DNA of 64,000 nt from Phaeocystidibacter marisrubri (lineage in GTDB: Bacteria > Bacteroidota > Bacteroidia > Flavobacteriales > Schleiferiaceae), in contig NZ_WBVQ01000002.1 in assembly GCF_008933165.1 (NCBI RefSeq), forward strand, positions 1,201,569 to 1,265,568. Direction: 5' to 3'. Below the pieces are notes generated by a model, which was not told the DNA's origin, searched no databases, and saw only the letters and a list, made by a program, of their open reading frames with translations. Positions 1-61,437 of this stretch are shown here, one piece after another. Within the stretch, counting starts at the first letter, position 1; every line of letters starts with the position of its first letter. Both the position numbers and the translations under genes were made by a program.

Positions 1-483
1 ATCAAACACTTCTGTTTTAGAGCCAAGTTTGGTATTGTCATAGATGAAGAAGTCTTCACGGAGAGAGGCGTCTACAATGGTGAAGCTTAATACGCAGACA
101 TCAACCCACGCCGATTTAATGGTAGGTTGACCTGTTTCAGGACCTGTTGAAAGTTCAATGTTTACACTCAACTTTCCACTGTTGTCAACGGCGGTCATTG
201 CTGTGTAGAAAGTGCTAGGTGGTAGGAACCCATCAAAGTTAGATGCGGTCAACGAAGCATAAGTAATTGCTGCTGTATTGTAGTCAATCAAAATGGTTGA
301 AGTTCCCAATGCAAATGAGTCTGGGGAACTAGAAGAATTCGCTCTAATTTGTAGAGTTACCGATAGTGTTCCCGAGTTTGTATTGTCGTCTGAGGTTTCA
401 ACAATACGCAAATCATAGCTCGCTTGCGCAAAGGCGAATGAGCTTGAAAGGAACATAAATATTGCAATTAGTCCAGGTCTCAT
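1..483 (-). CDS. Secreted cohesin-like protein, C-terminus cut off by the window edge
   Basis: The reading frame begins with ATG at 483-481 and stays open to base 1 (161 codons), so the stop lies beyond the left edge. It starts with a clear signal peptide (MRPGLIAIFMFLSSSFAFAQ) followed by a serine/threonine-rich beta-sandwich region that reads like the cohesin-like N-terminal domain of many Bacteroidota surface proteins (an LRIVETSDDN start, then an alternating strand pattern). The start codon overlaps the stop of the upstream gene (ATGA at 483-480), which implies co-transcription and translational coupling with the two similar genes to the right. Whether it ends in a dockerin-like or T9SS tail cannot be seen. 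Secretion is well supported; the cohesin-like label rests on sequence character only. Confidence 0.75.
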   Translation of the reverse strand, partial: MRPGLIAIFMFLSSSFAFAQASYDLRIVETSDDNTNSGTLSVTLQIRANSSSSPDSFALGTSTILIDYNTAAITYASLTASNFDGFLPPSTFYTAMTAVDNSGKLSVNIELSTGPETGQPTIKSAWVDVCVLSFTIVDASLREDFFIYDNTKLGSKTEVFD

Positions 484-1760
484 GGTGTTGCAGTAATTCG
501 TCCGTTATTCGTTCTCCACATCATATTGGCATCACTTGCACTTATCTGACCGTCCATGTTGAAGTCCGCGTTAGAATAAATGTTCAAGTTACCATTTGCT
601 GGCTGCCAGTATGAGTTTTTATCGGAAGCACTAATCTGTCCCGTTCCGTCCGCGTCTCCAGCCATCATCATCGAAACTCCACTCTTCACCTTAGCTCCTG
701 TTACTCCGCCATACATAGCAGAAGCTCCTGTGGAAAAGTCGTATTCCCAACGAGCGATTGGCGGTAGTGAGTCGTTGTAAGTCAATGAGTCAGCGCTCAT
801 CACTGCCAAGTGATTACGGTGATAGACAACTACAAACTGCTTCTTATTTGGGTTGAATTCTGTATTGTCAAATTCAAGATAAGAGCTACCGTCTAAATCT
901 ACGATTGTTCCATCTTTAAGCAAAAAGCCAGCTCGTTTAGCCAATGAGCTTGATGCGGCTGCATTGGAAACCAAGTACGTTTCTCTAATTTCTACCAAGA
1001 CCCAATCTACAACATCTGCATTTGGAATGGTTGTTACGCTCTCCCCGCCGGCATAGTTCCAAGGCGCCCCACTGTATGGGTTGCTCAAAGGAATTAGACC
1101 ATTGGTGTTAAGTGTGGTGTTCATCTCTCCAGTTGCGGAGTTGAAAGCACCTTCCAAGAAAACGGTAAGGTCCAAACGTGGTGATCCCAATGAAGGGAAG
1201 TCTGAGAATCTCATTTCGGCCGCGCTTGAAACAAACTTAGGCTGACGAGTAGTGAAGCAGTACATATTAGAAATGCTTTCATTTCTAGCTCCAGAAGTAA
1301 CCCATGAAAAAGCAGGGTCAGCGATTCCAGTGTATCCTGTGATTTCTACGTGAACAGAGCTGTAAACTACACCGTTGTCTAGCGCAATAACATTGTCGTT
1401 GAATTGCGATTGCGAATCGATGAACTGAGGGTTCATGGTGTAGATGACCTTATTCGCATTGTTCTGTGAACCAAAGCGAATGAAGCCTGGAGAAATACTG
1501 GTGTTGCCCGTTCTGCTGTGTACGTATCGGTTGGAGCTTACAGACACCATAGGGTTGGTAAACTGCGACCAATCAAAAGTGAAAACCAAATCACTAAAGG
1601 CAATAAAAGCGGTGTCTGAACGCGTACACTCCAAAGTAATGTCAAAATGCACAGTGCCCGAAGGGCTTTCCATGAAGTTAATCACGCCTACATCAATGCG
1701 CGTCTGACCAAAGCTCAAAGCTGAGGCAAGAAGAGTGATGTATGTGAAAAGCTTTTTCAT
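480..1760 (-). CDS. Secreted protein: cohesin-like N-terminus, shared C-terminal module, dockerin-like calcium loops
   Basis: The frame is open from 1850, but I place the start at 1760, where the signal peptide MKKLFTYITLLASALSFGQ begins; the 30 upstream codons are charged and not signal-like. The product is about 426 residues: an N-terminal cohesin-like beta-sandwich (about 20-190), a module at about 200-330 with the signatures DWVLVEIR, GFLLKDGTIVDLDG and YHRNHL, and two EF-hand/dockerin-type loops near the end (DADGTGQISASD and DFNMDGQISASD). The same C-terminal module occurs in the next gene and in the giant gene at 36652-46113. There is no T9SS sorting domain; the protein stops shortly after the second loop (ITATP). 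It overlaps the next gene downstream by 4 bases. The likely role is a cell-surface structural or binding protein, with export presumably by Sec plus an unknown anchoring route. Confidence 0.82.
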   Translation of the reverse strand: MKKLFTYITLLASALSFGQTRIDVGVINFMESPSGTVHFDITLECTRSDTAFIAFSDLVFTFDWSQFTNPMVSVSSNRYVHSRTGNTSISPGFIRFGSQNNANKVIYTMNPQFIDSQSQFNDNVIALDNGVVYSSVHVEITGYTGIADPAFSWVTSGARNESISNMYCFTTRQPKFVSSAAEMRFSDFPSLGSPRLDLTVFLEGAFNSATGEMNTTLNTNGLIPLSNPYSGAPWNYAGGESVTTIPNADVVDWVLVEIRETYLVSNAAASSSLAKRAGFLLKDGTIVDLDGSSYLEFDNTEFNPNKKQFVVVYHRNHLAVMSADSLTYNDSLPPIARWEYDFSTGASAMYGGVTGAKVKSGVSMMMAGDADGTGQISASDKNSYWQPANGNLNIYSNADFNMDGQISASDANMMWRTNNGRITATP

Positions 1761-1861
1761 TTTGATGTACTTCGGACTTTTGTGTGATAGGGTTCTATTC
1801 GTTTTTCTGTTGGAAGCGTAGAGCCGACAGGACTTGTGTCCCGTCGGCAAAACTTAGAGGA

Positions 1862-4159
1862 TTATGGTGCTTGTGTGCTGTAATCGCGGTTGTTAAAGAC
1901 AATCGCACGGTCATCGGCATCAATTACACCGTCGAGGTTTGCATCACTGTTGCTGTATGCATCTGTCGTGTTGCGGTCAGAGTACACAGCGCTGTAATCA
2001 CCTGCATTGATTACGTCATCTGTGGCTGAGTCTGTCCATCCACCAAACATTACATAAAGTGAAGCATCTCCGTTGTAGTCAAACATTCCGTCAGTACCTG
2101 TAGCGCCTGTTGTGTTGAAGTTGTAAGAGAATGCACTTGTTCCGTTGTCAGTTAACGAAGCAGAAGAACTTGCCGCCAAGTGGTTTCTGTGGTGAACTGC
2201 TACGTAGTAAGTAGTGTCTGCGCTGCTTGGAGCGAAGGTGAGTGGGTTGCCGTCGGCTCCTACAATACTTCCGTCTTCAAGCAATAGACCTGCTTTTTTG
2301 TATTTCACAACTGAAGCATCACTTGCTCCACCTGAAGTTGCTTCTGCACGAAGTTCAACCAAAACCCAGTCTACAACAGTGCTCAAGCCAGAGGTGTTGG
2401 TGTCTGCGCCAGCGTAGCTCCATGGAGCAGCGGAGTAAGGTTGTACAGCTGGTACAGTGATGTTTGTACCTGCCATGTCTGTGCCGTTAAATGCACCTTC
2501 AAGAGTGATTGTGATTTCAGCTTCAAGTTCCGTCACGTCAACGTCATTGCTGTTCGCACTGTTGGCATAGTTTAGAACGCTATCGTCAGCAGCTACCAAA
2601 CCGGTGTAGGCGTAGATATCAAATGCGTACTCTTCATATTGATCCAATCCTGTGATGGTAACAGAACCTGCTGTTCCGTCGCCGTTATAAACAACGTAAC
2701 CGTTGCCGATCGCGTCACCTGAGCCGTAAGTAGTGTTCGCTGAATAAGATGTTCCTTCTGTTGGAGCGGTTGCAGCATCAGAGCTTAAGCGCGCTACAAT
2801 CACCCAGTCATTGGTGTCTGCTGGGTTCGTCCAGGTCACTTCAATTGAGTTAGCAGATTGAGTGGTTGCTGTAATTCCAGCGAATGAAGTAGAAGGCTCA
2901 GCAAACATGCTGTATTGTGTTCCAGTCAAGAATGAGCTGGTCAAGTAGTTGTTATCCGATCCTGAGCCGTTGAATTCGTAGATCTCTACTGTGTAATTTT
3001 TTCCAGCAGTAAGGCCGGCGATAGAAAGTGAACCTGTGTTGGCCGCAGAGAATACTACGTAATTTTCAGTTCCTGTTGTATCTCCAGAACCAAATGAGCT
3101 GTTCGCAGTGTAGCTTGTACCGTCGTTTGGAGTAGCTCCAGTTGTATCGGCGTAACGTACCACTACGAGTACATTGTCACCGTCACCTTGTGTCCATGCA
3201 ATGTCAAATCCAGTTGGATCAATGTTAGAGAACACAATGTTGGTAGCGGCCGTAGTTGGTTCATCTTGTAGCGATGTACCCGTTGCCGTTGCAGAAGGAC
3301 CGTAAGCTTCAGTTTGACCAGAACCTCCGCTAAACTTGTAGATAGCGAAGTGGTAAGTAGTACCGTTAGCTAGACCCGTAATTGTTGCGCTAGTTGCAGT
3401 TCCGTCAAACTTGCCAACTACGTATTCTGTGCTCGATCCAGTGTTCAAAGAATCACCATCGCCAAAGTTGTTGTTGGCGTTAAAGCCTACTGTATTGATC
3501 GGGCCGTTTGCTACTGCTGAATCCGCGCGAGCAATGATCAACACACTGTCGCTAGCGGCATCCCAAGCTAGGGAAGCCTGACCTGGAGTAGAGAAGTCGC
3601 TTGTAAAGTTGGTGGCGGCTGCAATAGGAGCAGTGCCTGCAGTAGGGTCAGTAAGCGTTGGAGCGCTGATTGCTCTTTGGCGCAATCTTGACCCTTGTGT
3701 ATAAACTTCGTAGATCTTTGTTCTTGGAGAGCCTGAGGCAACATATGCGATGTCCGGTGTAGTTGTGAAATCGCTAACAGTGCTCAAGGTAACGGTGAAG
3801 AGCTTAACAGGAGTAGTTGTGATTTCAGGGAAGTCACTTGTACTTGTTGCACCGAAGTTACCTTGAATGTTCACTACCACATTTGAACCTACTATAGTCG
3901 CGGACAACGTTGTGATGTCGGCGTGTACGTTAGCAGATGTTGCGTTGATAGAACTCCACTTGGTGGCAGAAGTTGAGAAAACGATATCCGCATCTCCTAG
4001 GAAAGTAGAGCCAGAAGTCGTATTTGCATATACATCGAACGTGAAATCCTGACCGCTCTGGTTTTGATTTCTCGTCGTCAACGTGATGTCGTTGTTTTGC
4101 CCCCAAGAAGTAAAACTACTCAAGGCGATGATTGCAATAATTAATCCTTTCAATTTCAT
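1862..4159 (-). CDS. Secreted multidomain protein: cohesin-like, three Fn3-like domains, shared C-terminal module with dockerin-like loops
   Basis: The product has 765 residues from the ATG at 4159 (an in-frame TTG lies 6 bases upstream). Order: signal peptide (MKLKGLIIAIIALSSFTSWG), cohesin-like domain (about 22-170), three fibronectin III-like domains of about 120 residues each (about 175-300, 302-420, 425-545), recognisable by the repeated FGSGD...YVV and ITGL...Y.F.IY patterns, then the module with DWVLVELR, GLLLEDGSIV and HHRNHL (about 550-690), and calcium loops ending in DANLDGVIDADDRAIVF. It has no T9SS domain. It is the first gene of a minus-strand run with 1760-480 and 483-1 and leads the putative operon; a GAGACCTAA element lies 13 bases before its ATG. 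The probable function is an extracellular adhesin or scaffold. Confidence 0.83.
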   Translation of the reverse strand: MKLKGLIIAIIALSSFTSWGQNNDITLTTRNQNQSGQDFTFDVYANTTSGSTFLGDADIVFSTSATKWSSINATSANVHADITTLSATIVGSNVVVNIQGNFGATSTSDFPEITTTPVKLFTVTLSTVSDFTTTPDIAYVASGSPRTKIYEVYTQGSRLRQRAISAPTLTDPTAGTAPIAAATNFTSDFSTPGQASLAWDAASDSVLIIARADSAVANGPINTVGFNANNNFGDGDSLNTGSSTEYVVGKFDGTATSATITGLANGTTYHFAIYKFSGGSGQTEAYGPSATATGTSLQDEPTTAATNIVFSNIDPTGFDIAWTQGDGDNVLVVVRYADTTGATPNDGTSYTANSSFGSGDTTGTENYVVFSAANTGSLSIAGLTAGKNYTVEIYEFNGSGSDNNYLTSSFLTGTQYSMFAEPSTSFAGITATTQSANSIEVTWTNPADTNDWVIVARLSSDAATAPTEGTSYSANTTYGSGDAIGNGYVVYNGDGTAGSVTITGLDQYEEYAFDIYAYTGLVAADDSVLNYANSANSNDVDVTELEAEITITLEGAFNGTDMAGTNITVPAVQPYSAAPWSYAGADTNTSGLSTVVDWVLVELRAEATSGGASDASVVKYKKAGLLLEDGSIVGADGNPLTFAPSSADTTYYVAVHHRNHLAASSSASLTDNGTSAFSYNFNTTGATGTDGMFDYNGDASLYVMFGGWTDSATDDVINAGDYSAVYSDRNTTDAYSNSDANLDGVIDADDRAIVFNNRDYSTQAP

Positions 4160-5939: not shown

Positions 5940-7410
5940 GTTTGACAGTGAATTCAGCTCTGCCGATTGGATATTTCTGATCTTCTATGGCGTGATTTTC
6001 TTGTATACGATTACGGTGATGTTGTCGTATGTATTCTTGGCTCTGTTTTCTAATATTCAGGCTCGTATCTATATTCAGCGAAATAAGTACGCGAAGTACG
6101 ACTTGCTCTTGAAGTCGAGCGTAGCCCCAACGGTGTCTGTTCTTGCGCCCGCGTACAATGAAGAAGCGACCATTGTTGAGAATATTCGATCTTTAATGAG
6201 TATCTCTTATCCTCGTTATGAGGTGGTTGTGGTAAATGATGGAAGTAAAGATTCAACCCTTCAACAGTGCATCGATGCCTACGACTTAGAGAAGATTCCA
6301 TTCCAACCCACCGGCAGTTTGGTATGTCAAGAGATAGTTGCAGTGTATAGGTCTAAAAACCCCGTTTTCAAAAAGTTATTGGTTGTAGACAAGTTGAATG
6401 GTGGAAAGGCAGATGCCCTCAATGCAGGATTGAATGTCGCTCGCTCTGATTATGTGATGAATATCGATGTGGACTGTATCCTTGAGAGAGATTGTTTACA
6501 GCGTTTGATGAAGCCGTTTCTAGAAGAGAGCGGTCGAAGAGTAATTGCGACGGGTGGAGTGATTCGAATAGCAAACAATTGCGTTGTAGAAGGGGGGTCT
6601 ATCAAAGAAGTGAACTTGCCTACTTCGTTGATCGGAAGGTTCCAAACTTTAGAGTATTTGCGCGCTTTTCTTCTTGGGAGAATGGCTTGGGGGTATTTGG
6701 ATGGATTGTTACTGATTTCTGGGGCTCTCGGTGTTTTTGATAAACAGCTAGTCCTGAAGTGCGGCGGATATTTTGCCGAAACAGTAGGAGAAGACATGGA
6801 GTTGGTGGTTCGGATGAGGCGCTATGCCCGTGAACATGGTATCAAGTATAAGGTAGAATTTATTCCTGATCCACTCTGTTGGACAGAAGTTCCTGAGGAT
6901 ACAAAAGTGCTTTATCGCCAGCGTAACCGATGGACACGAGGCACGATAGAAACCATTTTACTTCACAAAAAACTCTTTATGAATCCTCGCTATGGCAAAA
7001 TTGGGCTTTTGAGTTTTCCGTATTGGGTTTTCTTTGAGTGGTTGGCACCCATCATTGAATTCTTTGGCATCGTTTCCATGATTTTCATGGCCATGTTGGG
7101 GCTCATCAATTGGTCTTTTTTCATCCTGCTGTTTGCAATGGTGTACTTGTTCTCCATCACTATTTCCATCTACACACTCTTTATGGAAGATCTTACATTC
7201 TTCCAGTATAAGCGAAACAAAGACTTTCGAATTCTGATCCTGATGGCCTTCTTGGAGCCGTTCCTTTTCCACCCTTTTGTAGTGTGGTCTGCTGTACGAG
7301 GAAATTGGGATTACTTCTTTGAAGGCAAGAAACAGTGGGGGGCTATGAAGCGAGCTGGGTTTAATAAACCCACTTCTTCCAGCACAGATTCTACAACACC
7401 GGTAGGTTAA
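5923..7410 (+). CDS. Processive family 2 glycosyltransferase (membrane polysaccharide synthase)
   Basis: The product has 495 residues (alternative ATG at 5932). An N-terminal membrane helix (about 16-43) precedes a GT2 catalytic domain with PAYNEE (76-81), VNDGS (104-108), the DxD-type metal site DVDC (182-185), catalytic-base GED (289-291) and QRNRW (333-337), which is the Q-x-x-R-W signature of processive beta-glycosyltransferases such as cellulose, hyaluronan and poly-GlcNAc synthases. Several C-terminal membrane helices follow (about 355-470). The expected reaction is transfer of sugar from a UDP- or GDP-sugar into a growing chain at the inner membrane with export of the polymer. The sugar cannot be read from sequence. 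The gene overlaps the HEAT gene at its start and the convergent gene at 7407 by 4 bases at its end. Confidence 0.9.
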   Translation: MSSMREFDSEFSSADWIFLIFYGVIFLYTITVMLSYVFLALFSNIQARIYIQRNKYAKYDLLLKSSVAPTVSVLAPAYNEEATIVENIRSLMSISYPRYEVVVVNDGSKDSTLQQCIDAYDLEKIPFQPTGSLVCQEIVAVYRSKNPVFKKLLVVDKLNGGKADALNAGLNVARSDYVMNIDVDCILERDCLQRLMKPFLEESGRRVIATGGVIRIANNCVVEGGSIKEVNLPTSLIGRFQTLEYLRAFLLGRMAWGYLDGLLLISGALGVFDKQLVLKCGGYFAETVGEDMELVVRMRRYAREHGIKYKVEFIPDPLCWTEVPEDTKVLYRQRNRWTRGTIETILLHKKLFMNPRYGKIGLLSFPYWVFFEWLAPIIEFFGIVSMIFMAMLGLINWSFFILLFAMVYLFSITISIYTLFMEDLTFFQYKRNKDFRILILMAFLEPFLFHPFVVWSAVRGNWDYFFEGKKQWGAMKRAGFNKPTSSSTDSTTPVG

Positions 7411-8969
7411 GGGCGAATAATTCCCGACTGAGGATATCTATTCTTAATGGTTTGTCGGTATCGTTTCGCAAGGCTGAGGTCATAGAAAGGAATCACAATG
7501 TCGTATTGCGCACTGGTGTTTCCCAATTTCACTTTAGCATAAGGAATCTCGCGGCTCTCAATGAAACGATGAGCATCTTCTGCACGCGGAAACGACCCTA
7601 AGAACAGGTAAGCTGTGATGGGGGTTTCAGGTACCTCTATGGAATCGTTTTCGGGAATGTACGCGGCCATGTATCCCACGCTCTTGGGTTCAGGTAGGGA
7701 GTTCCAGTTCACTTTTGGTTCATTGAAATTGACCAGTAGTTTCTCTGTGGTTCTGTAGCTCGAGCGTTCGGGTAGAGATAGGTGTGTTGTTCTGTTGCCG
7801 AGGAGTTCTTCGTGATATCGAGCGAGTGTTCCCTCCATGAAAGGTTGGTAGTAATCCCAGAAGAATTTTCTTCTATCACCTAAATTTTTGTTGTCGTACC
7901 AAAGCGGACTTAAGCACTCCGAACCTTCAAAATGCGAGGTGTAAACTGCAATCGGGTTGTCGGTAAAATCGCCAGCCATATAAATGGTGCGCCAATCCGG
8001 TTTTGCAATCACTGCGGGAAATGACTGCGGAATTCCCAATGCTCTCATCTTACTAGCGCCAACGGGGTTCGCGTAAATTCTGTATTGAGATACGATCCTG
8101 GCTGAGGTATCAATTTGTCCGATTTCAAACCAGAAAGGGTAGCGTATAAATGCATCAACACCGATGGATTCGGCTAAGACTTCTTCGGTTTCAATAATGG
8201 GAACAGGATGAACCATTTCAGAAGAGGGTAGGATGAGAATGCGACCGTCCTCATTAAAGAAGCCAACGCCAGGGCCCGATAATGTATAAGGTTCGTTGAA
8301 CTGACGCGTGTATAGCTCCGGAATCCAATCTGGCAATTCCGTGTTCAATGCGGTGTCTAGCTCTTCATAGTATCTACCCACCCATCCTGTGAAGTGAATG
8401 CCTAATAGATCTTCCGCTCTTGTGCGAATCAATTCGGGAGTGGGGCTACCAAAGATGCTGAACTCGGCGAGTACGAGTTTTTTTCTATCCATCAAGCTCT
8501 GCATCAGCGAAATATCTTCACTCTCTAAGCCACCATAAATCTTACCTCTCTTGGGAATGTCCACCATGCGATCACGCCAGTCTTCATAGTATGAGCCGTA
8601 GGTGTCAATGAAGTATCCAACGTCAATGTAATCGGCAATGCTGTCAATAAGTTGGGGCGAAGAGTCTTTTAAGTCGTTAGAAATGAGTAAATTCTCGGGG
8701 GATGGAAAATATCCCAAGTAATCTATGCGCTGATTGTACTGTCCTCCGTCTTCTTTGACATATTTAGCATGATTCAACACCCAGGTAAAGGCGCGGTGTT
8801 CAATATTGCTAAAGTCTTGAGCAGTTTTATCAAGCATCACCACTTTTAAGGTGGTAGACGGTTTTGCTAGCCAAGCTAAATAGCTCCAGAGTGGAGTGAG
8901 CAGGAGGAAGAATAAAACGCCCTTTCTTAGGCGAAACTTCCATTTACTTGTTGATGCGGTGCCTGACAT
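7407..8969 (-). CDS. Unknown membrane-anchored protein next to the polysaccharide synthase
   Basis: The product has 520 residues. Basic N-terminus and one membrane helix (about 16-36, VLFFLLLTPLWSYLAWLA), then a long presumably periplasmic domain. The opening block (LDKTAQDFSNIEHRAFTWVL, then YNQRIDYLGYFP) and later GVGFFNEDGRILILPS and AVYTSHFEGSE give it the look of a TIM-barrel or deacetylase-like polysaccharide-modifying protein, but I cannot name a family and see no certain catalytic site. The gene ends 4 bases inside the synthase gene on the other strand, a tight convergent arrangement that suggests a conserved pairing. A possible function is modification or export of the polymer; this is inference from context. 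Confidence 0.72.
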   Translation of the reverse strand: MSGTASTSKWKFRLRKGVLFFLLLTPLWSYLAWLAKPSTTLKVVMLDKTAQDFSNIEHRAFTWVLNHAKYVKEDGGQYNQRIDYLGYFPSPENLLISNDLKDSSPQLIDSIADYIDVGYFIDTYGSYYEDWRDRMVDIPKRGKIYGGLESEDISLMQSLMDRKKLVLAEFSIFGSPTPELIRTRAEDLLGIHFTGWVGRYYEELDTALNTELPDWIPELYTRQFNEPYTLSGPGVGFFNEDGRILILPSSEMVHPVPIIETEEVLAESIGVDAFIRYPFWFEIGQIDTSARIVSQYRIYANPVGASKMRALGIPQSFPAVIAKPDWRTIYMAGDFTDNPIAVYTSHFEGSECLSPLWYDNKNLGDRRKFFWDYYQPFMEGTLARYHEELLGNRTTHLSLPERSSYRTTEKLLVNFNEPKVNWNSLPEPKSVGYMAAYIPENDSIEVPETPITAYLFLGSFPRAEDAHRFIESREIPYAKVKLGNTSAQYDIVIPFYDLSLAKRYRQTIKNRYPQSGIIRP

Positions 8970-9141: not shown

Positions 9142-12100
9142 ATGGAGAGCCTCTACTCGCTTCCCTGCAACTGGCGCGTGTGGCTTATAATTTCTCTGTT
9201 TTTCAGCGCTTTAAGTGTTGATGGGCAGATTGGTTATATCTACGACCCTTCCACCGGAACGGTGCTAGACCCGAATGGAGATAGTTATATCTCTGCTTCG
9301 GGAGGACCTATTGACACTTCTGTGGTGCCTGATGAGTCCTACGATTTTGAGTACCCATTTATTCCCATGTTCCATTTGTCAATGGAGCCTGCGGCAGACT
9401 TGTTGACGGGTAGCGACTGTGGTAAGTCGGAAATTGTAGATAACCCTACGCTTCCGATGAACGCGGGTTACTGGTACCTGGCTGATCCAAATGGAACACC
9501 TGGGGATGGGGACGAAGCCCTTATATATAGGATACGTATTGCTCGAAACGTAAATGGAGCATACGGATTTAGTTTCCTTATTGATACCGATAACAAAATT
9601 GGTTTTACAGGAGCAAGCGCCGACCCCAATGCGGTGGCGGGTAATCCTGGCTTTGAATTGGAAATTATATATGGTACCGCGGGTAGTGGTACGGTTTCCA
9701 TTATGGATGTAGATGGTACAACTTCCGGAACTACCATGTCTTCGTATTCTGGAACCAGCCATTCGCAACGAAGTCATGCGGGTTATACAAACTGTCCACT
9801 CTCGGATCCTGTATTTCTCGATTTTTATGTGCCGTGGGACAGCTTGGGAATTCTTCCAACCGATACCGTTCGAATGATTTTTGCGACTTCTTCTTCAGCA
9901 AATTCTGCTCTAGGAGGAAGTGCTTCTGATATTGGAGGTATTAATGATGACTTGTTCGGTGATCCCGACTCAAGCTTTGTCGCCATTACAGATTCTACAC
10001 CGAGCTTTACGTTTGGAGGATGTGGATGGGCAATTACTCAAGTGGGACAGCAGGTAAGCTGTTACGGTGATACTGATGGCTGGGCTTGGGTAGATGTTTG
10101 GGGAGGTTCACCTCCTGTGAGCTATTTATGGTCAACAGGTTCAACGGCAGATACCGTTTACAATTTGGGAGCGGGTATCTATGAAATTTATGTGACGAGC
10201 GGAGGCGGATGTATGGATACGGTCACCGTGGAAGTTACACAGCCCGACTCCTTAGTGGCTCATGTTGACATATTGGATAGTATTCTCTGTTATGGAGATT
10301 TTAATGGTCGGCTTGGGGGTTATGCAACGGGTGGTACTCCACCCTATACGGTGTCTTGGAGCAATGGCGCCATTACAGACACTATCGCCAATTTAGGTCA
10401 GGGGTATTATACCTACTACGTCACAGATGCGAATGGATGTTCGGATTCCATTGTTGTTGATATGATGAATCCGCTACAGCCGTTGGTGGTCCAAATTCAA
10501 AATCAAAATGAAATTTTGTGCTACGGTGATAGTATAGGTTCCTTGGATCTGCTGATTACTGGAGGTACAAAACCATATACATTATTGTGGAACGACGGCA
10601 ACACAGATAGCGCTCGCACCAATCTTGTTGCGGGAATTTATTCCGTAGTTGTAACGGATGCACACGGGTGTACAGATTCTTTAGAGATTGAACTTACGCA
10701 ACCAGCACTTCCTGTTGGTGGTCTTACCATTGCGGAATCTCCTGTTAGTTGTTTTGGAGGTGCGGACGGTGTTGGTGTGGTGGTAGTCACCGGTGGACGA
10801 TCTCCTTATACCTATGAGTGGAGTAATGGAGAGACAACCGACACTGCGTTCGCTTTATCAGCAGGTAGTCAATGGGTTGTAGTTACCGATAGCGTAGGTT
10901 GTACCGATACGCTTGCGCTTGTTATTGATCAGCCAGATAGCGCGCTTACTGTAAATGCGCTGATGACTGCAGCTGTAGCTTGTTTCGGTGAAAGTAACGG
11001 GGAAGCAACCGCTTCGGTATCGGGTGGAACACTTCCATATTCATATTTGTGGAATACAGGTGAAACCACGAGTTCTATTACCGTTCCTGCCGGAACCTAT
11101 ACGGTTGTGGTGACCGACTCTAGAGGGTGTGTAGACAGTGCAACCGTAACAATCACACAGCCAGCTTCAGCATTGACAGTTTCTATTACCGATTCTACTG
11201 ATGTCCTTTGTTTTGGTGATGATAATGGAACGGCAACCGCATCTGCAACAGGAGGTACGGCGCCATATGATTATGAATGGAGCAACGGAATTACCGACAG
11301 TGCTGCTACGGGATTGGCGGGTGGAGCTTACACCGTGGTTGTTACAGACGCCAACGGGTGTATCGATTCGGCAACAGTTACGATTTCTGCGCCAACTGCA
11401 GCATTGGATGTAAACGAAACCATTCTCCAAACTCTTCTTTGTAATGGGGATGTGAATGGACAAGGATACATAGATGTTACGGGTGGCACATCGCCTTATT
11501 CTATTTTATGGTCGAACGGTGCAACGACGGATACGATTTCCAATTTGGGTGTAGGCACTTACACAGCGGTCGTTACCGATGCGAATGGATGTGTCGATTC
11601 AGCCTCTTTCACATTGGTGGAGCCGACGGCATTGCTGCTAAATGCTTCTGTTGATGCGAATGTTCTGTGTTTTGGTGATGCAACTGGCGGTGCAACGGTA
11701 ACTGCTTCAGGAGGAACATCGCCGTACTCCTATTTATGGTCAAGTGGACAAACCACAGACATTGTTACCGATTTAATCGCGGGAACACATACGGTAGTAG
11801 TAACGGATGCCAATGGATGTAGTGATTCTATTTCTGTTACTATTACTCAACCCGCAGATTCGTTAGTGGCCGGAACTTCCAGCAACTTAGGTGTGACTTG
11901 TAAGGGAGATGTTGATGGATCGGCTACCGCGACGGCAACGGGGGGTACTGCGCCTTATACCTATTCATGGAGTAATGGAATGACAGGGCAAAGTATTTCT
12001 GGCCTGGCAGGTGGGACGTACATTCTTACTGTTACCGATGCCAATGGTTGTCAGGATACCGCGCACGTTTTGATTTTTGAACCAGAGTTTGAGTTGCTTG

Positions 12101-15100
12101 TAGGAGCCGCAGATGGAACCACCATTACTTGTTTTGGTGATTCCGATGGTACCGCATATGCGAGTGCATCGGGAGGTGTGCCTCCGTATACGTTCTCTTG
12201 GAGCAATGGAATGTTTGGCGATACTATTACGGGAATTCCGGCTGGAACTTATGTAGTTACGGTAACTGACTCTATGGGTTGCCAGGATACAAATACAGTG
12301 GTGGTTACGCAACCAACTCTTCTTGAATTGAATGTGACATCTAGTGATGTGACCTGTTTCGGACTGTCTGATGGTACGGCTAATTCAACTCCTTCTGGGG
12401 GAGAGGCTCCGTATTCAATTCTCTGGAGCACAGGTGCAACTACGCAAACTATTACTGGTTTAAGTGCTGGAAATTATTATGTTACAGTAACCGATAATAG
12501 AGGCTGTGTCCAAAGTGACACGGTGGTGATTACAACTCCAAGTATGCCTTTAGCCGCTATCATTTCCAAAACAGATGTCAACTGTTTTGGCGGTGCTGAT
12601 GGTACGGCTGAGGCCATTGGTTCTGGTGGTGTAACTCCGTATACGTACTTGTGGAGCGATGGTCAAACGGGTCAGGTGGCGACAGGATTAGTTCCAGGTG
12701 CCTATCACGTGTTTATGACCGATGCCAATGGTTGTCAAGATTCGGCTTATGTTGTTATAGATCAACCACTAAGTGCGCTTACTGCAACTGCATCCGTGGC
12801 AATAGCCCCTACTTGTGCGGGCTTCCTAGATGGTGTGGCTTGCGGTACAGCGAGTGGTGGTACGGCTCCGTACTCTTATTCTTGGAGTAGTGGTTCAACT
12901 ACAGATTCTGCCTTTGGTTTAGGAGGTGGAGTAGTGATTCTTACCGTAACCGACTCCAACGGTTGTGTGGCTGTAGACACATTAAATGTTCCTTCTCCAA
13001 GTACGGACTTGGAAGTGAATGCCTCTATCATTGCAAACGTTTCATGTAATGGATTGAGCGATGCAACAGCGTATGGAATTGCTTCAGGTGGTACTCCGCC
13101 GTATTCCATTTCGTGGAGTTCAGGTGCAACAACCGATACTGTTACGGGACTAGCTGTTGGAACACATACCGTTTATGTGGTCGATTCTGCAGGTTGTAGC
13201 GCCTCCAGCACGTTTAGCATTACTCAACCCGACACCATTTCTATTTCCATTGTAGTGGATGCCAATGTGAGCTGTTTTGGCGGAGCCGATGGCGAAGCGA
13301 CAGCTTCTGCAACGGGTGGAACAGCGCCGTTTACTTACTCTTGGAGTGGTGGACAATCGGGTGCGACTGCAGTTGGGCTTTCGGCTGGAATTCATACGGT
13401 TACTGTAACCGACTCCAATGGTTGTGTGAACACGCTTGACGTTACCATTACTGAACCAGCCACTGCCGTAAACGCGAGTGCGGTTATGGATGTGGCGGTT
13501 TCTTGTTTTGGTGGAGCCGATGGTGAAGCGACAGCTTCGGCAGCGGGTGGAACGCCTCCTTATTCGTACGCTTGGAATGATGGTCAGATTACTGCCACAG
13601 CGGTTGGCTTGTCTGCAGGTAGTTATATCGTTACCATAACAGATTCATTGGGTTGTCAGGATACAGCGGTAGTTGTCATCACAGAACCGGCTTCAGCGGT
13701 TGATGTTTCGAGTGTTCAAATTCGAGATGTTAGCTGTGTGGGCGGAGCAGATGGTTGGGCCACCGTGTCTGGCTCTGGCGGAACAGCTCCATATACTTAC
13801 GCATGGAGCAATGGTCAGACGGGCGATTCTGCCAGCGGTTTAGCTGCGGGAAGTTACCTGGTAACCATCACCGACAATAATGGATGTACCGATACAACCA
13901 CAGTGACTGTAAGTGAGCCGGTGTTGGCACTCTCTGCTGTGGCTATTGATGCCATGACAATCTCTTGTTTTGGCGGGTCTGATGGATCGGCCTATGTGAA
14001 TGCAAACGGCGGTTGGGCTCCTTATTCCTATATGTGGAGTACCGGTGCAACAACCGATACCATCACAGGTTTAACTATTGGTACTTATACGGTTACCGTA
14101 ACTGATAGTTTAGGTTGTCAGGTTACCACAGATATAACCCTCATTCAACCGACACAATTATCAGCCACAGCATCCTCTCTTTCTCCTGTTTCTTGTTTTG
14201 GCGGAAATGATGGATCGGCAGTGGTAACACCTGCTGGCGGTACAGCTCCTTACACATACGTGTGGGCCAATGGTGAAACGAATGATACAGCGATTGCGCT
14301 AACAGCGGGAACGCACAACGTGACGGTTACAGATTCCAACGGGTGTCAAGTAACCGTATCTGTTACCATCACACAGCCTAGCGTGGCCATGACAGCTTCC
14401 GCTTCGGTAATGGCCAATGTTCTTTGTTATGGAGATTCAACAGGTTCTGGTCGTGCATCGGCTTCAGGTGGGACACCTCCTTATGCCTATGCTTGGTCCA
14501 ACGGTCAATCTACCCGAACAGCTACAGGCCTTTGGGTTGGAACACACACCGTTGTCGTTACTGATGCAAGAGGTTGTCAGGATAGCACAACTGTGACCAT
14601 ATCACAGCCGGCAACGGCAGTAGATGCTTCTGCGGTAATGACTCAACAAGTGAGCTGTTATGGTGGAAATGATGGTAGAGCTTCGGCCTCAGCCACAGGT
14701 GGAACGGCTCCATATACTTACTTGTGGAGTAACGGGGTGTCTGGAACTACAACGCATAACCTAACAGCCGGATGGCACTATGTGACAGTTACCGATGCAA
14801 ACGGTTGTCAGGATACTGCCATGGTTGAAATAATTGAACCGATTGCTCCAGTAGCAGTTGGAGGCACGGTGGTTCAGAATGTCACATGCTTTGGCGGGGC
14901 AGATGGTGTCGCTTGGGCTAATGCAACAGGAGGTACAGCCCCATACACGTATGCATGGAGTGATGGTCAAACAACAGACACGGCTGTCGGACTTGTTGCA
15001 GGCAACTACGCAGTATTGGTAACCGATTCATTGGGCTGTCAAGATCTGATTTCTGTGGTGATCACAGAACCAGCTTCAGATATCATGGCTACTGCCTTCC

Positions 15101-18100
15101 CGGATCAACCGACTTCTTGTTACAACGGAGCCGATGGTACTGCATATGTGGTTGTTACCAACGGTGTTCCTCCATTCACTTACTTGTGGAGCGACGGTCA
15201 GACTTCAGATACAGCCGTTGGTTTAAGTGCTGGTCTGATCAGCGTTACGGTTACCGATTCTTTGGGTTGCGATGCTACTGCTGATGTTACTATTGCTTCA
15301 CCGCCTCAGAATATCATTCTTACGCCAACACTGGTTAGTCAGGTGAGTTGTATTGGAGGAGGAGATGGTTCGGCAAACGTATTTGCACAAGGTGGAACGC
15401 CTCCATATACGTACTTGTGGTCCAATGGTGAAACTACAGCCACTGCGGTAGCACTTTCAGCAGGCACGCATACAGTTGTGGTTACCGATGATCTAGGCTG
15501 TATGGATTCCACATCGGTGAGCGTGGGCGAACCCGCAACATCCGTAGTGGCTACGGCTTCTGTTCTTTTCCCTGTGAATTGCTACGGTGGCAACGATGGT
15601 TGGGCTACAGCAACCGCAACTGGAGGTACTCCACCGTATACTTACACTTGGGATAACGGTCAATCAGGATATACCGTTTCTGGTTTAGATACAGGTGTGT
15701 ACGTTGTTACAGTAACGGATGCCAACGGTTGTTGGGACACTGCCACTGTAATGATGACGCAGCCAGATAGCGCTATTCAAGTGGGTATTGATGTTATTAA
15801 TAATGTAAGATGTTTGGGCGGGGCGGATGGTTCGGCTCAGGCATTCGCAACAGGGGGTACTCCTCCTTATTCATACGATTGGGATCATGGTGTGACGGGA
15901 GCGTTGACATCAGGACTCCTTCCTGGAAAGTACACGGTTACTGTAACCGACGTGAACGGTTGTCAGGATAGCATGTCTGTCTGGATCACTGAACCAGCAA
16001 CAGCTCTTGCTATTAATGCAGCCGTAATAAGCCCAGTGAACTGTTTCGGCGGTTCCGATGGAGTGGCTTATGCAAGCGCTACGGGAGGAGATGGCCCTTA
16101 CACTTTCTCATGGAGCAATGGTCAGGCAGGCGATACCGCTACGGGGTTAACTGCTGGTAGTTATACGGTTTCCGTTACTGATAGCAATGGTTGTGTGGTG
16201 AGTACGGGTATCACAATTACTCAACCTGCCTCCGCATTGAGTGTGGGCGTAAGTATTGTGAACAATGTTAGTTGCTTTGGTGGTTCCGATGGAGCAGCTA
16301 GCTCTACCGTGAGTGGTGGAACGGCCCCTTATTCATATGTGTGGAGTAGTGGTGACCTTACAGCTTCTTCATCGAATTTATCAGCGGGAACCTATTCCCT
16401 TGTGGTAACAGATGCAAATGGTTGTATCGATTCAACTTCAGTGACCATTACAGAGCCTTCATCGGCTATCACAAGCGCTGCGACGATTGTAAGTCAAGTG
16501 AATTGTTTTGGTGGTTCCGATGGCGAAGCTTACGTTACATATACAGGCGGAACCGCACCATATTCTACCTTGTGGTCCAACGGCTCAACTAGTGATACAC
16601 TCACCAATCTCGTCGCGGGATCATACAGTGTTACAATCACCGACGCGAACGGATGTGTAACCAGTCAAACGGTTGTTATTACCCAACCAGCCAATGCACT
16701 TTCACTTTCTGCCATTGTAAACGCCCATGTATTGTGCTTTGGAAATTCTACCGGTTCGGCAACCGCAACCGCAACGGGAGGAACCGCACCATATACCTAC
16801 TCTTGGAGTAATGGTATGTCTGGCACGTCTATAGGCTCGGTTCCAGCGGGAACCTATACCGTGAATGTGCTTGACGCGAATGGTTGTTCCGATACAGCAA
16901 CGGTTACCATTATTCAACCGGCTGCAGTACTAAACGTCAGCATTATTTCTACTCAGAATGTATTGTGTTTTGGTGATGCTACTGGAGCAGCTCGTGCTGG
17001 CGCAACCGGAGGAACCGCACCGTACACCTATAGTTGGTCCAATGGTGCTTCTGTAGATTCGATTAATGCTCTACCCGCGGGGATTTATACGGTTACCGTG
17101 ACGGACGCAAACGGTTGTCAGGATACCGCTGTTGCAGTGATTACGCAACCTTCATCGGGTCTAGGTTCTTTGGCCGCCTCTATTCAAAATGTCAACTGTT
17201 TTGGTGGCAACGACGGTTCAGCGTATGTGGAATACACGGGCGGAACGGCACCTTACACCGTATCATGGAGTAATGGATCAACAACCGATACCATCTCTAA
17301 CCTAACTGCGGGAACCTACACAGTGACCATCACGGATGCGAACGGTTGTATCTCGAACCAAAGTGTGACCATCACGCAACCAGCTAGTGGTCTATCTGTA
17401 AGTGCAGCGGTGGTGAGTAACGTCAGCTGTTTTGGTGACGCAACGGGTGAAGCGAGTTCTACCGTAACGGGCGGAACGGCACCTTACACCTATAACTGGA
17501 GCAATGGGGCAACTACTGCCTCGCTTACCAATGTTGTTGCGGGCACTTACACCGTAACTGTAATGGACGCGAACGGTTGTACCGATACGGCTAGTGTGAG
17601 TATTACACAGCCTGCGTCGGCACTAGCAGTAAGTCTAGCTTCACAGCAGAACATCAACTGTTTTGGGGACTCTACAGGGTCTATCGACGTGACGGTTGCA
17701 GGCGGAACCCCGCCGTACAACTACAGTTGGAATACTGGCGCTACAGCAGCAACGATCACTAACTTAACTGCGGGAACCTACACGGTGACCGTAACGGACG
17801 CAAACGGTTGTACCGATACCTTATCAGTGACCTTAACTCAGCCAGCTTCTGCATTGAGTAGTCTAGCCGCCTCTATTCAAAATGTCAACTGTTTTGGTGG
17901 CAACGACGGTTCAGCGTATGTGGAATACACGGGAGGAACGGCACCTTACACTGTATCATGGAGTAATGGATCAATAACCGATACCATCGCTAACCTAATT
18001 GCGGGAACCTACACAGTGACCATTACGGATGCGAACGGTTGTACCTCGAACCAAAGTGTGACCATCACACAACCAGCTAGTGGTCTATCTGTGAGTGCAG

Positions 18101-21100
18101 CGGTGGTGAGCAACGTCAACTGTTTTGGTGACGCTACAGGTGAAGCAAGTTCTACCGTAACGGGCGGAACAGCACCTTATACCTATAACTGGAGCAATGG
18201 GGCAACTACTGCTTCATTGACCAATGTTGTTGCGGGCACTTACACCGTAACTGTAACGGACGCGAACGGTTGTACCGATACGGCGAGCGTGAGCATCACA
18301 CAGCCTGCGTCGGCTCTAGCGGTAAGTCTAGCTTCACAGCAGAACATCAACTGTTTTGGGGACTCTACAGGGTCTATCGACGTGACGGTTGCAGGCGGAA
18401 CCCCGCCGTACAACTACAGTTGGAATACTGGCGCTACAGCAGCAACGATCACTAACCTAACTGCGGGAACCTACACGGTGACTGTAACGGATGCGAACGG
18501 TTGTACCGATACCTTATCAGTGACCTTAACTCAGCCAGCTTCTGCATTGGGTAGCCTAGCTGCGGTAGTATCCAATGTCAACTGTTTTGGTGGCAACGAC
18601 GGTTCAGCGTATGTGGAATACACGGGCGGAACAGCACCTTACACCGTATCATGGAGTAATGGATCAACAACCGATACCATCTCTAACCTAATTGCGGGAA
18701 CCTACACAGTGACCATTACGGATGCGAACGGTTGTACCTCGAACCAAAGTGTGACCATCACACAACCAGCTAGTGGTCTATCTGTGAGTGCAGCGGTGGT
18801 GAGCAACGTCAACTGTTTTGGTGACGCAACGGGTGAAGCGAGTTCTACCGTAACGGGCGGAACAGCACCTTATACCTATAACTGGAGCAATGGAGCGACT
18901 ACTGCTTCATTGACTAATGTTGTTGCGGGCACTTACACCGTAACTGTAACGGACGCGAACGGTTGTACCGATACGGCTAGTGTGAGTATTACACAGCCTG
19001 CGTCGGCACTAGCAGTAAGTCTAGCTTCACAGCAGAACATCAACTGTTTTGGGGACTCTACAGGGTCTATCGACGTGACGGTTGCAGGCGGAACCCCGCC
19101 GTACAACTACAGTTGGAATACTGGCGCTACAGCAGCAATGATCACTAACTTAACTGCGGGAACCTACACGGTGACCGTAACGGATGCGAACGGTTGTACC
19201 GATACCTTATCAGTGACCTTAACTCAGCCAGCTTCTGCATTAGGTAGCCTAGCTGCGGTAGTGTTGAATGTCAACTGTTTTGGTGGCAACGACGGTTCAG
19301 CGTATGTGGAATACACGGGTGGAACAGCACCTTACACTGTATCATGGAGTAATGGATCAACAACCGATACCATCGCTAACCTAACAGCGGGAACTTACAC
19401 AGTGACCATTACGGATGCGAACGGTTGTATCTCGAACCAAAGCGTGACCATCACACAACCAGCTAGTGGTCTATCTGTGAGTGCAGCGGTGGTGAGTAAC
19501 GTCAGCTGTTTTGGTGACGCTACAGGTGAAGCAAGTTCTACCGTAACGGGCGGAACGGCACCTTATACCTATAACTGGAGCAATGGGGCAACTACTGCTT
19601 CATTGACCAATGTTGTTGCTGGAACTTACACCGTAACTGTAACGGACGCGAACGGTTGTACAGATACGGCTACTGTGAGCATCACACAGCCTGCGTCGGC
19701 TCTAGCCGTCAGTGTTATTTCTTCTCAAGATGTATCTTGTTTTGGAGATACAACAGGTTCAGCACAGGTTCAGGCTACAGGCGGAACTCTTCCGTACACG
19801 ATTTCATGGTCTAACGGCGTAAGCGGAGCTTCGGCGAATGGACTTGCCGCAGGAACGTATACCATTACGGTAACCGATGCCAATGGATGTTCCGCGAACA
19901 CTTCAGTCATCATTTCACAACCCGCAACCGCTCTTGCAAGTGCAGCGACCATTGTAAGTCACGTGGATTGTTACGGTGGAGCGAATGGTCAGGCTTATGT
20001 GAGTTATTCAGGAGGAACTGCTCCATATACGGTGATGTGGAATACGGGTTCTACATCGGATACGCTAAGTAATATTCCAGCAGGTTCGTACAGTGTTTTA
20101 ATTACTGATGCCAACGGCTGTACTTCTAGTCAGACTGTGGTAATTACCCAACCGGCTTCTGCATTGACTGTATCGGCAACCGTAAACTCACATGTTAGCT
20201 GTTTTGGTGGAACTGCAGGTTCGGCAACCGCAAGTGTTAGTGGAGGAACCATGCCTTATACTTACAATTGGTCGAACGGAGCAAATACTCCATCTGTGAG
20301 CAACCTAGCGGCGGGAACATATACGGTGAGTGTAACCGATGCCAATGGATGTACTAGCAGCGCAAACGTGGTGATTACAGAACCCGCTACGGGATTGTCG
20401 GTTTCAACGTCTGTGCTTAGCGCAGTAGATTGTTTCGGAACAAACACGGGTGCAATTACATCAACCGTTTCAGGAGGGACTTCACCATACACCTTCAGTT
20501 GGTCAAACGGTCCGAGTAGTCAAACTCAAAACAATGTGCCTGCGGGGTCCTATACTGTAACTGTGACCGACGCCAATGGTTGTCAAGCTTCATCTACTGT
20601 TGTACTCACACAACCTAACTCTGCACTGGTTGCAGCAGTGGCAACATCAAATAACGTCACCTGTTTTGGTGGGGGAGATGGATCAGCTACCATTAGCGCA
20701 TCAGGAGGCACGGCGCCTTATACTTACGACTGGGGTGGAGGAATTACTGGTGCCAATCGTACTGGTTTAACCGCGGGTACGTATTCCGTAACCGTAACCG
20801 ATGCAAACGGTTGTAATGCTGTGGTAGGAGTGACCATCACGCAGCCTACAGAGGTGGTAATCACCAAGGTTGCTCAAGGCAATGTGAACTGTTTTGGAGG
20901 TGCAGATGGTTTCGCACAGATCTCGATTTCCGGTGGAAATGGTCCATATAACGTGAACTGGACAGGTGGATTGAACGGAATGAATCCTTCGGGAGTTTCG
21001 GCTGGAACGTACACCGTTACCGCGGTAGACATCAACGGTTGTCAGGATACCGCCACTTTCACGATCACCCAGCCGGCTATGCAGCTCAATTCCGCTGTAG

Positions 21101-36651: not shown

Positions 36652-39600
36652 TTACGGCAGTAGAGCCACTCGCCCGATGTTCCAGAAGATCAATGCTCGA
36701 TCTTCAGCATCTATGTCACCATCCCAATTGAGGTCCTCGACTTTGTAAACGTTGGTGGTATTCCTCTGATTCCAAATTTGAATGGCATCTGAGGCGTCGA
36801 TGGCAAAGGGAGTAGACGTTTCAACCTGTCCGGCGGGCACCACTTGCCATCCGTTGTAAAGATGAGTGGCAACATTGCTCATTCCACCGTTTATTCGCGT
36901 GTCTAACACATGCACGTTTTCAACATTGGCAAAAATGTCTGCGCTGGCAAAGGTCAAGTGATTTCTAGATTGAATTCGGGCTCGGAGTGTGCCGCTTCGC
37001 TGAGGTAATACGGTGGGAAGTGTGACCCCATCCAGTGATACAACCTGACCATCTTTTCGCAAGAAATAAGCCCCTTCGTGGATGATGTTTTCCGAAGTCA
37101 TTTGTGCTTCTGTAGGAGCGTCATATATCTGTATGTATATCCAGTCGCTGGTATTGGAAGGTACGGAGGCAACACTCTCTGTACCGGCGTAACTCGATCC
37201 AAAAGGTTGTATGAGCGGTATGAGACCTCTCGATAAAAGCGTGGTGGACATCTCTCCAGTAAGGGTGTCTAGCGGACCTTCCATGAACACGATGAGGTCG
37301 AACTGAACGGCCGTGTTTTGGTTGTCGATTAAGGATGAAGATGTGAGGTAGTTTTCTGAAACGGTGTCTTCTTTGTTGAATTCGAACACCTCGAAGTAGT
37401 AGGTTTTGTTGGATGTCAGCCCCGTAATAGAGAAGCTGGAATCACTGCCTTTGTACACGGCAAATTGTCCTGAGCCTAGGTCGGGAGAAGTGCCAAACTC
37501 TGTGTTGAACTCATACCAGTGATAGTCTTCTGGAGCAAAGTTTACCGCACTACCCTCTCTCGCAATAACCAGTCGCTGTTGTCCATCTCCACGGCTCCAT
37601 CCCAGGTTAAAGTTGGCTACTTCAACATTGCTGAATACCATAGAAGTTGAAGAGGTGGTCGGTTCGCTGGCAATGTCGATTTCTCGGCCCGTAAATTCTC
37701 CAAAACCATCGATGAAAACGGAGATGCTGTTGGATCCTATTATGGAGGAATCGCCGTTTACACAGTAGGTTCCGTTGTACCGTTTTCCCACCACGTTCGC
37801 TTCCGTTCCCACAATGTCAGCATCTACATAAACCATGGTGACGGTTCCCGTTACATCGGATAGATCGCTTGCGGCTATGTCCCAGTACCGAGTGATGTAA
37901 TCCGTTGAACCTCCGCAATTCACTCCCGCGTCATCGGTGGATTGAATGCGCAAGGAAGGATTGCTAGCCGTGGTAGAAGCGGTAATGTCAATGCTGATAG
38001 GGGCATATTCGGCGTCCCCTGCTAGATCGCCCGTTGGGATATTGTAGGTTCCCGTGGTTGGCGTATTCTGCACGATGCTTCCTGAACCAGAGGTGGCAAG
38101 AAAGGAGGAGCTAGAGGCTGATGAAATCGCAATGGTACCACCTAACATCATGTCAAAAGTGTCCAATTCTACATGACCGTTTACCAACTGAAGGTCGTTC
38201 GCCACATTCAAAGGGGTGGATAAAGTATGGGTTCCGGTTCGATCAACAACGAAAGCATCCAGCGTGTGCTCGGCAGTTGCAAAGTTGGGAAGCGTGGAAG
38301 ATCCAGTTCCCCGCAATACGAGTTTTCCTCCTCCAGAGGATCGGTATTCTCCTGCTCCCGTATGATTTCCAAACAAGACGAGAGAATCGGTGCCCAGGTG
38401 AAGTGTTGTGTTTACCGATAAGGTATTGTTGATGCACAAATCACTGCTCAAGGTGAGTACTCCACTCCCATTTACAATGGCGCTTTGCACAGCGCTTCTG
38501 CGGAATGGAATCTCACCACCAGTACTTACGTCGGAAGCGTTATTCCATAAAATGTTTCCACTTCCGGCATAGGTGATACTTTCTAATACAGTGCCTTCGC
38601 TCACTTCTATCCAACCTCCATCCGAAAGAGTTAGGGTGTTGCCATTTGAATTCAAAGTACCGCTATATGCGCGAATACTGTCGTTTACGAGTAGGTTGCC
38701 ACCTAGCAACAATCCATTGGAATTATCAACTTCTAAGAGTTGCAGCTCGTTGAGCGATGACGGTGTGACGATTCCACTACCCGTACCGAAAACAGATAGC
38801 GATGAAGTACTGCCGCCCACCAGTGATGTGGACGTTCCCTCTATCGGGTTTTGAAGGGCTAAACGATGGGCTTCAATGGCGAAGTTGTTGATTCCTAAGG
38901 TGAGTACTCCATGGATGGTGAGGTCGGAGCTCAAGCTTAGGGCTGTGTTGCGAGGGATGGATAAACTGTCCAAATTTGGAGAGGTATCGGCAAAGGGCAA
39001 ACCGTTGGAAATAGTACCGCTTCCACTGATGGTGACACTGGAGTTTGGGCTGGAATACCACGTTCCATTGAAAACGTCTCCGCGGAATTCAACATTCCCT
39101 CCGCTTAAGGAAAGCACGCCATTCGTTTCAGTATACGTGCCTTCAACTACCGTGTTGCCAGAAATCAATGTGAGGGAATCATTTCCAGAATTGAAGTTGA
39201 CGGTGAGGTTGTTGAAGTGGGTGTTGCCAGAAATGTCAGATCGACTTCCTGTAAAAGTAACCGTACCTGTACCTCCGTCAAATGCCGAACTACCAACAGT
39301 GTTGGTCCAATTTTTTCGCACTTCAAGTTGAATGTTGTTGGAGTTGGATACAGCTCCGCCACGTATGGTAAAGTCGCCGTATATGGTGAGGTTCTGACTT
39401 CCTAAGTCTTTGGTAGAAGATCCGTTAAAAGTGAGGTTGTCGTAGGTTGAGAACCCATTTAGAATCTCTGCATCGATGCTGCCTGTGTAAACCCATGTAC
39501 CACCTGTGTCGGAAATAAATCCTGAATAGATTCCGGCGGGCGCGATGTAAACGTTGGAGGCGGTGACGTCCATGATGACTTTCCCCGTTCCATTGAAGCG

Positions 39601-61412: not shown

Positions 61413-61437
61413 CCATAATGATTTTATCACGAGACTT

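Follow-up and report, generated by a model that had tools for sequence, protein, structure and literature searches.

Bioinformatics analysis of a 64,000-nt stretch of the Phaeocystidibacter marisrubri genome (contig NZ_WBVQ01000002.1, positions 1,201,569 to 1,265,568; hereafter the window) indicates that it probably encodes parts of a cohesin/X-dockerin assembly on the Bacteroidota cell surface, anchored through the type IX secretion system (T9SS). A cluster on the minus strand is transcribed in the order P2, P1 and a third gene, which runs off the window; the stop codon of P1 and the start codon of the third gene are joined by an ATGA overlap. P1 and P2 are adjacent, complete open reading frames with signal-peptide-like starts (judged by eye), and the complete third protein has 736 amino acids (aa; L009:11842-14052, beyond the window edge). 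According to the original prediction, made from this DNA alone, P1 and P2 start with a cohesin-like domain and end in a shared C-terminal module, a giant protein of the window ends in the same module, and the third neighbour has the same kind of N-terminus. The open frames and a genome search, the sequence and profile match of the giant protein, and the predicted fold of the third-protein head agree with these statements. The two calcium loops ascribed to each dockerin are both canonical in P1 but not in P2, which has a single canonical loop, and the giant protein appears similar to P2 by eye. With the P2 copy of the module as a query, four matches were obtained in the P. marisrubri genome (E-values from 2e-140, itself, to 7e-19), the fourth module gene being located on another contig (C1:31112-31687, in a frame of 934 aa; the C1 protein).

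The head of the third protein is predicted to have the cohesin beta-sandwich fold. Its part within the window (161 aa) was modelled by AlphaFold2 with eight sequences (predicted local distance difference test, pLDDT, 71; predicted template modelling score, pTM, 0.67). Rows 1-20 of the Foldseek search were all cohesin entries (E-values, 2e-4 to 2e-3), and VIA comparison with 1aoh gave a Z of 11.3 over 123 residues, with a root-mean-square deviation (rmsd) of 2.9. P1 was predicted in full with 67 sequences, and from residue 191 onward the 10-residue pLDDT means were 91-98, with one block at 86. The model predicts a beta-sandwich X module followed by a dockerin, in the X-dockerin dyad arrangement of 2b59: residues 193-426 of P1 were aligned by VIA to the X-dockerins 4wi0, 5g5d, 4u3s and 2b59 with a Z of 9.8-10.0 (148-150 of 156 residues), and all rows below these dyads had a Z of 6.7 or less. 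Residues 21-425 also matched the cohesin-X-dockerin fragment of CipA (3kcp; Z, 10.5), but with an rmsd of 11, meaning that the relative orientation differs and that this match supports the domain order only. The Foldseek search with whole P1 gave no confident match (best E-value, 0.03), probably because of the poor model of its head; the X-dockerins were found by VIA afterwards.

At E-values up to 1, 13 of the 15 PDB sequences matched by module profile A7 were dockerins, as classed by the names of entries and molecules. In 2b59, the sequence profile matched the dockerin but not the X part, and no Pfam or NCBIfam model matched the X-like portions of P1, P2 and the giant protein at E-values up to 1. 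Helices are found at residues 378-388 and 408-418 of the P1 dockerin in the predicted model. Among 176 dockerins examined by pattern, 87 had two loops, 73 had one, and 16 had none. The two repeats within one dockerin were alike (mean score, 69.6 vs 26.4 between proteins), and in 43 of 81 cases the own second repeat scored highest or shared the highest score, as expected for two-site binders. In 210 of 215 distinct 3'-complete modules, at most 40 residues follow the profile end. Pro is present among the last four residues of 170 of the 215 complete modules vs 11% of 762 other frames, and in the window at positions 483, 1865 and 36655. Relatives carrying the same module have cohesins that reach the gathering score of PF00963. 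The cohesin-dockerin identity is supported by the structure comparison, the dockerin matches of the profile in PDB, the Pfam-grade cohesin fusions in relatives, and the covariation described below.

T9SS tails were searched for with the models of type A (TIGR04183, as well as PF18962), type B (TIGR04131) and type C (NF033708). The P. marisrubri genome has 103 Por_Secre_tail matches and SprA, and is thus a full T9SS user, in which P1, P2, the giant protein and the C1 protein are exceptions, ending in the module rather than in a T9SS tail. No T9SS tail model of Pfam or NCBIfam matched P1, P2 or the giant protein at E-values up to 1, although many partner proteins match the type A, B and C models. 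These proteins had been described as lacking T9SS tails, which holds for P1, P2 and the giant protein; the third gene of the cluster, however, supplies a weak type A match at the C-terminus of its product (E-value, 0.0025; 17.7 bits to TIGR04183, cut-off 23; 18.4 bits to PF18962, cut-off 27). The TIGR04183 cut-off was reached by 6 of 10 scanned proteins of the third-protein kind, two of them exactly at it.

Pairing of a module gene with a tail-bearing gene is seen across the phylum. The 95 stretches used for this comparison (L009 and 94 others, of which 14 are from P. marisrubri or near relatives and 80 were chosen down the profile ranking, not comprising every match) contain 119 module frames, and 95 of these are followed within 600 bases by a same-strand frame of at least 150 aa, which comes next in 82 cases and is separated by additional module genes in 13. 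The spacing is within 100 bases in 81 cases, and 56 are within 10 bases or overlapping. Family scans covered 76 of 82 distinct downstream frames (6 partial, short or very long ones were dropped) and 79 of 80 upstream frames. At an E-value of 0.05, TIGR04183 matched 50/76 downstream vs 9/79 upstream frames (Fisher p, 1e-12), and PF18962 matched 48/76 downstream frames. Judged by eye, most tail-bearing partners have cohesin-like heads, and about a dozen listed neighbours are unrelated proteins; at the same threshold, Pfam Cohesin matched only 3/76 downstream partners. Of 111 module frames in the 80 named loci, only 57 have a same-strand frame downstream, many such neighbours being unrelated, which suggests that copy-rich genomes scatter their dockerins. 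Treating the partner as one orthologous family failed: a search with the A2 profile, made from its middle part, yielded 14 frames only, in loci of the taxonomic order to which P. marisrubri belongs. In the congeneric genome G001, the third gene is present as two overlapping frames (L033:6149-6910 and 6690-8639), a frameshift of either the gene or the assembly. An SRAIxKLQLLR-like C-terminus is shared by 19 partners of about 415-470 aa (Table 1), 5 of which are matched by TIGR04183 at an E-value of 0.05; it is possibly an undescribed class of T9SS tail.

Module profile A1, built from 23 modules, was searched against 392 genomes of the phylum, P. marisrubri included. Matches at an E-value of 0.001 were found in 62 genomes, in 56 of these at 6e-15 or better; G108, G246, G250, G281, G285 and G295 (module E-values, 2e-4 to 6e-4) were set aside as doubtful. 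It had been proposed to check whether the module always occurs with T9SS, and SprA is indeed present in all 56 strong-module genomes vs 264 of the 336 others. A single-sequence search found the module in 8 of 40 near genomes, P. marisrubri included. Of 587 named places, the best 80 are in records that are labelled Flavobacteriales, Saprospiraceae, Bacteroidales, Melioribacteraceae, Ignavibacteria, Chlorobiota, Kapaibacterium, Calditrichaeota and others, with a few odd labels in addition. The module is also present in records labelled as Thermoplasmatota archaeon and Paceibacterota (L196, L207 and L204), which seem likely, as a guess, to be mis-binned Bacteroidota contigs.

If a dockerin binds the cohesin of the neighbouring protein, the two are expected to diverge jointly despite being encoded by separate genes. 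Manual removal of regulators and unrelated neighbours reduced 137 pair rows to 81, and criteria of length and completeness then left 79 and 72; pairs from named loci were retained only if the partner looked cohesin-like. Alignment A5, in which heads and modules were mixed and misaligned, was not used, and A6 was superseded by A8. Among the 79 pairs, the correlation was 0.71 between cohesin and dockerin, 0.44 between cohesin and X module, and 0.40 between dockerin and X module (0/2000 permutations). When the X module and the tail were controlled for in the 72 pairs, the partial cohesin-dockerin correlation was 0.62, a value reached by none of 1000 permutations, and the partial correlations of dockerin with tail and of cohesin with X module were 0.03 and 0.11, respectively. 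The partial cohesin-dockerin correlation was 0.63 without the 18 pairs with SRAI tails (n = 54) and 0.55 in a non-redundant set (n = 47); the Spearman coefficients without these 18 pairs were 0.38 for cohesin-dockerin vs 0.23 for cohesin-X. Between two operons of one genome (L043 and L044), the distance is 0.17 for the X module, 0.68 for the dockerin and 0.96 for the cohesin. The divergence of cohesin and dockerin is thus matched across genes better than that of the dockerin and its own X module or the tail of its partner.

Within the genus, P1 retains 57-59% identity in the cohesin and 64-65% in the X module, with the dockerin down to 41-42%; the identity is 23-32% for the third-protein cohesin and 63-66% for the P2 dockerin. 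The third cohesin shares more identity with one from a different genus of the family (43%) and one from a different family (39%) than with those of congeners. In ranks against 77 pairs from outside the genus and G028, the third cohesin was nearest to L038, L206, L036, L078 and L077, and the P1 dockerin to L038, L036, L221 and L077. The cohesins of P1 and P2 had the same four nearest pairs (L080, L118, L175 and L225, the fourth of P1 being tied with L082), and the four nearest dockerins included 4 from these pairs for P2, 3 for the C1 protein and 3 for the giant protein. Based on these nearest-pair ranks, the third protein would be an anchor with a first-type cohesin, P1 an adaptor, P2 an extender, and the giant and C1 proteins cargo. 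Judging from sequence, the P1 dockerin may fit the cohesin type of the third protein, and the dockerins of P2, the giant protein and the C1 protein may fit the type of the P1 and P2 cohesins, which narrows the mutual binding proposed by the original prediction to these combinations. The third protein would be exported and anchored via its T9SS tail and display its cohesin, into which the X-dockerin of P1 would plug; P1 would in turn display a second-type cohesin. P2, having a dockerin and a cohesin of the second type, would extend or branch the chain, and the giant and C1 proteins would plug in as cargo via second-type dockerins. We infer the binding itself, its calcium dependence and its stoichiometry, and the assembly would presumably be located at the cell surface.

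As to how the tail-less partners may cross the outer membrane, a tentative possibility is that X-dockerin proteins dock in the periplasm on a cohesin, and that the T9SS tail of the cohesin protein brings the whole complex through SprA. Such hitch-hiking would explain the tail-less giants and C25 peptidases, the order and overlap of the paired genes, and the X-dockerin at the position of a tail. Docking before export, as opposed to docking after an independent export, is favoured and not proven by the location of the X-dockerin at the C-terminus and by the closeness of the paired genes.

Several results weigh against the proposed assembly. The model of the P1 head has pLDDT means of only 35-73 and a cohesin Z of 6.7 vs 6.0 for unrelated beta-sandwiches. 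The best PF00963 match in the P. marisrubri genome has 12.1 bits (cut-off, 24.1) and lies elsewhere in the genome; as no cohesin reaches the gathering score, the domains are termed cohesin-like. For the dockerin family PF00404, P1 scores 15.2 bits (gathering score, 22.9), with P2 and the giant protein unlisted. The tail of the third protein is under both cut-offs, TIGR04183 and PF18962. No same-strand frame was found within 600 bases downstream of 24 of the 119 module genes, including the C1 gene and the giant-gene copy of G001, and the giant gene of the window is followed by genes on the opposite strand. In the pair analysis, the partners were filtered by hand and the permutations ignore phylogeny. 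The Spearman coefficients of the full set are equal for cohesin-dockerin and cohesin-X (0.39 each), and within the 18 SRAI-tail pairs the cohesin-X correlation (0.85) exceeds that of cohesin-dockerin (0.71; partial, 0.34). Finally, two of four scanned Bacteroidales upstream proteins (L251:2-5974 and L252:2-2107) have a tail and no Pfam cohesin.

An unlikely alternative is that the X-dockerin block itself acts as a C-terminal signal of T9SS type for export or anchoring, the cohesin-like heads being incidental beta-sandwiches. The block is found at the extreme C-terminus, where a tail would sit (210/215), Pro is frequent near its end (170/215), SprA is present in all 56 strong-module genomes, and C25 peptidases, which are usual T9SS clients, are among the cargo (5/88). 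By profile and fold, however, the block is a dockerin, its gene is paired with a separate tail-bearing gene, and its dockerin part diverges together with the cohesin of the partner and not with the tail, which an export signal need not do. A commonly regulated adhesin cluster, in which EF-hand-like and Ig-like domains bind calcium and not each other, is considered improbable: beta-sandwich domains are common in adhesins, and Z values of 6-9 were also obtained with unrelated sandwiches, but the first 20 Foldseek rows of the third head are all cohesins, and the likeness of repeats within a dockerin and the covariation across genes argue against it. Least probable, the tail-less proteins would stay periplasmic, held until or unless bound, in line with the lack of any T9SS tail model match in P1, P2 and the giant protein, but adhesin- and peptidase-like content and a T9SS-type partner would fit the surface better. 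Returning to the cohesin/X-dockerin assembly, the predicted cohesin and dockerin folds, together with the lack of tail model matches in P1, P2 and the giant protein, run counter to what had been named as grounds for abandoning the original prediction. It is partly supported overall: the cohesin-dockerin identity stands, and the tail-less claim and the mutual binding are refined.

Larger versions are found in Bacteroidales. Five metagenome-assembled genomes (MAGs) chosen for their frequent module (L168, L178, L165, L182 and L197; G429-G433) have between them counts of 48, 71, 47, 64 and 110 module matches, and Pfam-grade cohesins are present in all five. The beta-helix protein L249:843-6224 and the protein L253:3-1622 each have a cohesin and a T9SS tail above both cut-offs. 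The former is directly followed by L249:6258-8660, which has three cohesin stretches and an X-dockerin (41% identity to that of P1 over 231 aligned positions), and L250:2779-6258 and L252:2092-5568 each contain four cohesin stretches and an X-dockerin in a single frame. The cargo scan took in 88 of the 94 N-termini that were eligible in the named loci; among the 25 of 57 families listed were C25 (5), M14 (3) and C10 (2) peptidases, PKD (9) and beta-helix (5). Tandem-cohesin scaffoldins ending in the same X-dockerin, with several peptidase families as cargo, amount to a cellulosome-scale system in these MAGs. Multi-cohesin scaffoldins thus occur in Bacteroidales MAGs, and no multi-cohesin scaffoldin with dockerin enzymes was found in the P. 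marisrubri genome, which looks like a minimal form of the phylum-wide system.

The cohesin-X-dockerin order is the same as in the clostridial type II X-dockerin/cohesin system (CipA, ScaA; 2b59, 3kcp, 4u3s, 5g5d). Clostridial cellulosomes are anchored through the S-layer or by sortase, whereas here the proposed anchor is a T9SS tail, and the P. marisrubri genome is without a cohesin above the Pfam cut-off. The assembly would work like a cellulosome and is not classed as one. As far as the accessible parts of the report go, the nearest published idea is that of Ca. Stygibacter (Cloacimonadota), where a multi-cohesin scaffoldin of 3,755 aa with carbohydrate-binding modules (CBMs) is proposed to be held at the cell by a C-terminal domain, with dockerins on enzymes including a C25 peptidase (PMC8542988). 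The likeness lies in the description of a cohesin scaffoldin proposed to be held by a C-terminal domain; an X-like module, a paired operon and a single-cohesin anchor do not figure in these parts (PMC8542988). For rumen Bacteroidetes, members of the same phylum, the accessible part of another report describes dockerins beside glycoside hydrolase (GH), domain of unknown function (DUF) and CBM modules, their role being undefined (PMC7480376). In the literature searched, largely without subscription papers, no report was found of the module, its pairing, or a cohesin with a T9SS tail in Bacteroidota.

All other large secreted proteins of the window had been said to carry T9SS domains. The family scan found tails in five of them (Table 1), and none in two further large frames, 57644-60520 (histidine kinase-like) and 61357-63999 (running off the window). 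The type B protein (4451 aa) also has a weak match, under the cut-off, to a BapA-like adhesin model.

Table 1. Features of the window and partners with SRAI tails in other loci.
Feature	Position	Strand	Remarks
Third protein, N-terminal 161 aa	1..483	-	signal-peptide-like start and cohesin-like domain; proposed anchoring scaffoldin
P1, 426 aa	480..1760	-	cohesin-like domain, X-like module and dockerin; proposed adaptor scaffoldin
P1 cohesin-like domain, about residues 19-175	1236..1706	-	model of low confidence; Z of 6.7 with cohesins
P1 X-like module, about residues 193-366	663..1184	-	DWVLVEIR, LLKDGTIV, HRNHL
P1 dockerin	483..662	-	two canonical loops; final residue Pro
P2, 765 aa	1862..4159	-	cohesin-like domain, fibronectin type III (3 stretches), X-like module and dockerin; proposed chain extender
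P2 cohesin-like domain, about residues 22-165	3665..4096	-	based solely on similarity to the sequences of partner cohesins
P2 X-like module, about residues 547-705	2045..2521	-	module searches and alignment
P2 dockerin	1865..2044	-	one canonical and one degenerate loop
Giant protein, 3153 aa	36652..46113	-	DUF2341, Laminin_G_3, G8, long middle, C-terminal X-like module and dockerin; proposed cargo
Giant protein X-like module and dockerin	36655..37314	-	profile match G000:C2:1238223-1238882
Type B tail protein	9142-22497		T9SS type B above cut-off
Type A tail proteins	31262-32635, 46696-50019, 50137-51720, 53097-54275		family scan
SRAI-tail partners	L108, L114, L119-L121, L124, L128, L130-L132, L135-L137, L140, L143, L146-L148, L154		

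If the proposed assembly is real, cellulosome-type assembly anchored by T9SS extends widely in Bacteroidota (56 of the 392 sampled genomes), which would account for large secreted proteins that have no known T9SS signal. The apparent cohesin and dockerin swaps within the genus are candidate orthogonal pairs. Piggy-back export of tail-less partners by T9SS becomes a directly testable question and, if hitch-hiking is true, several proteins would be exported by one tail.

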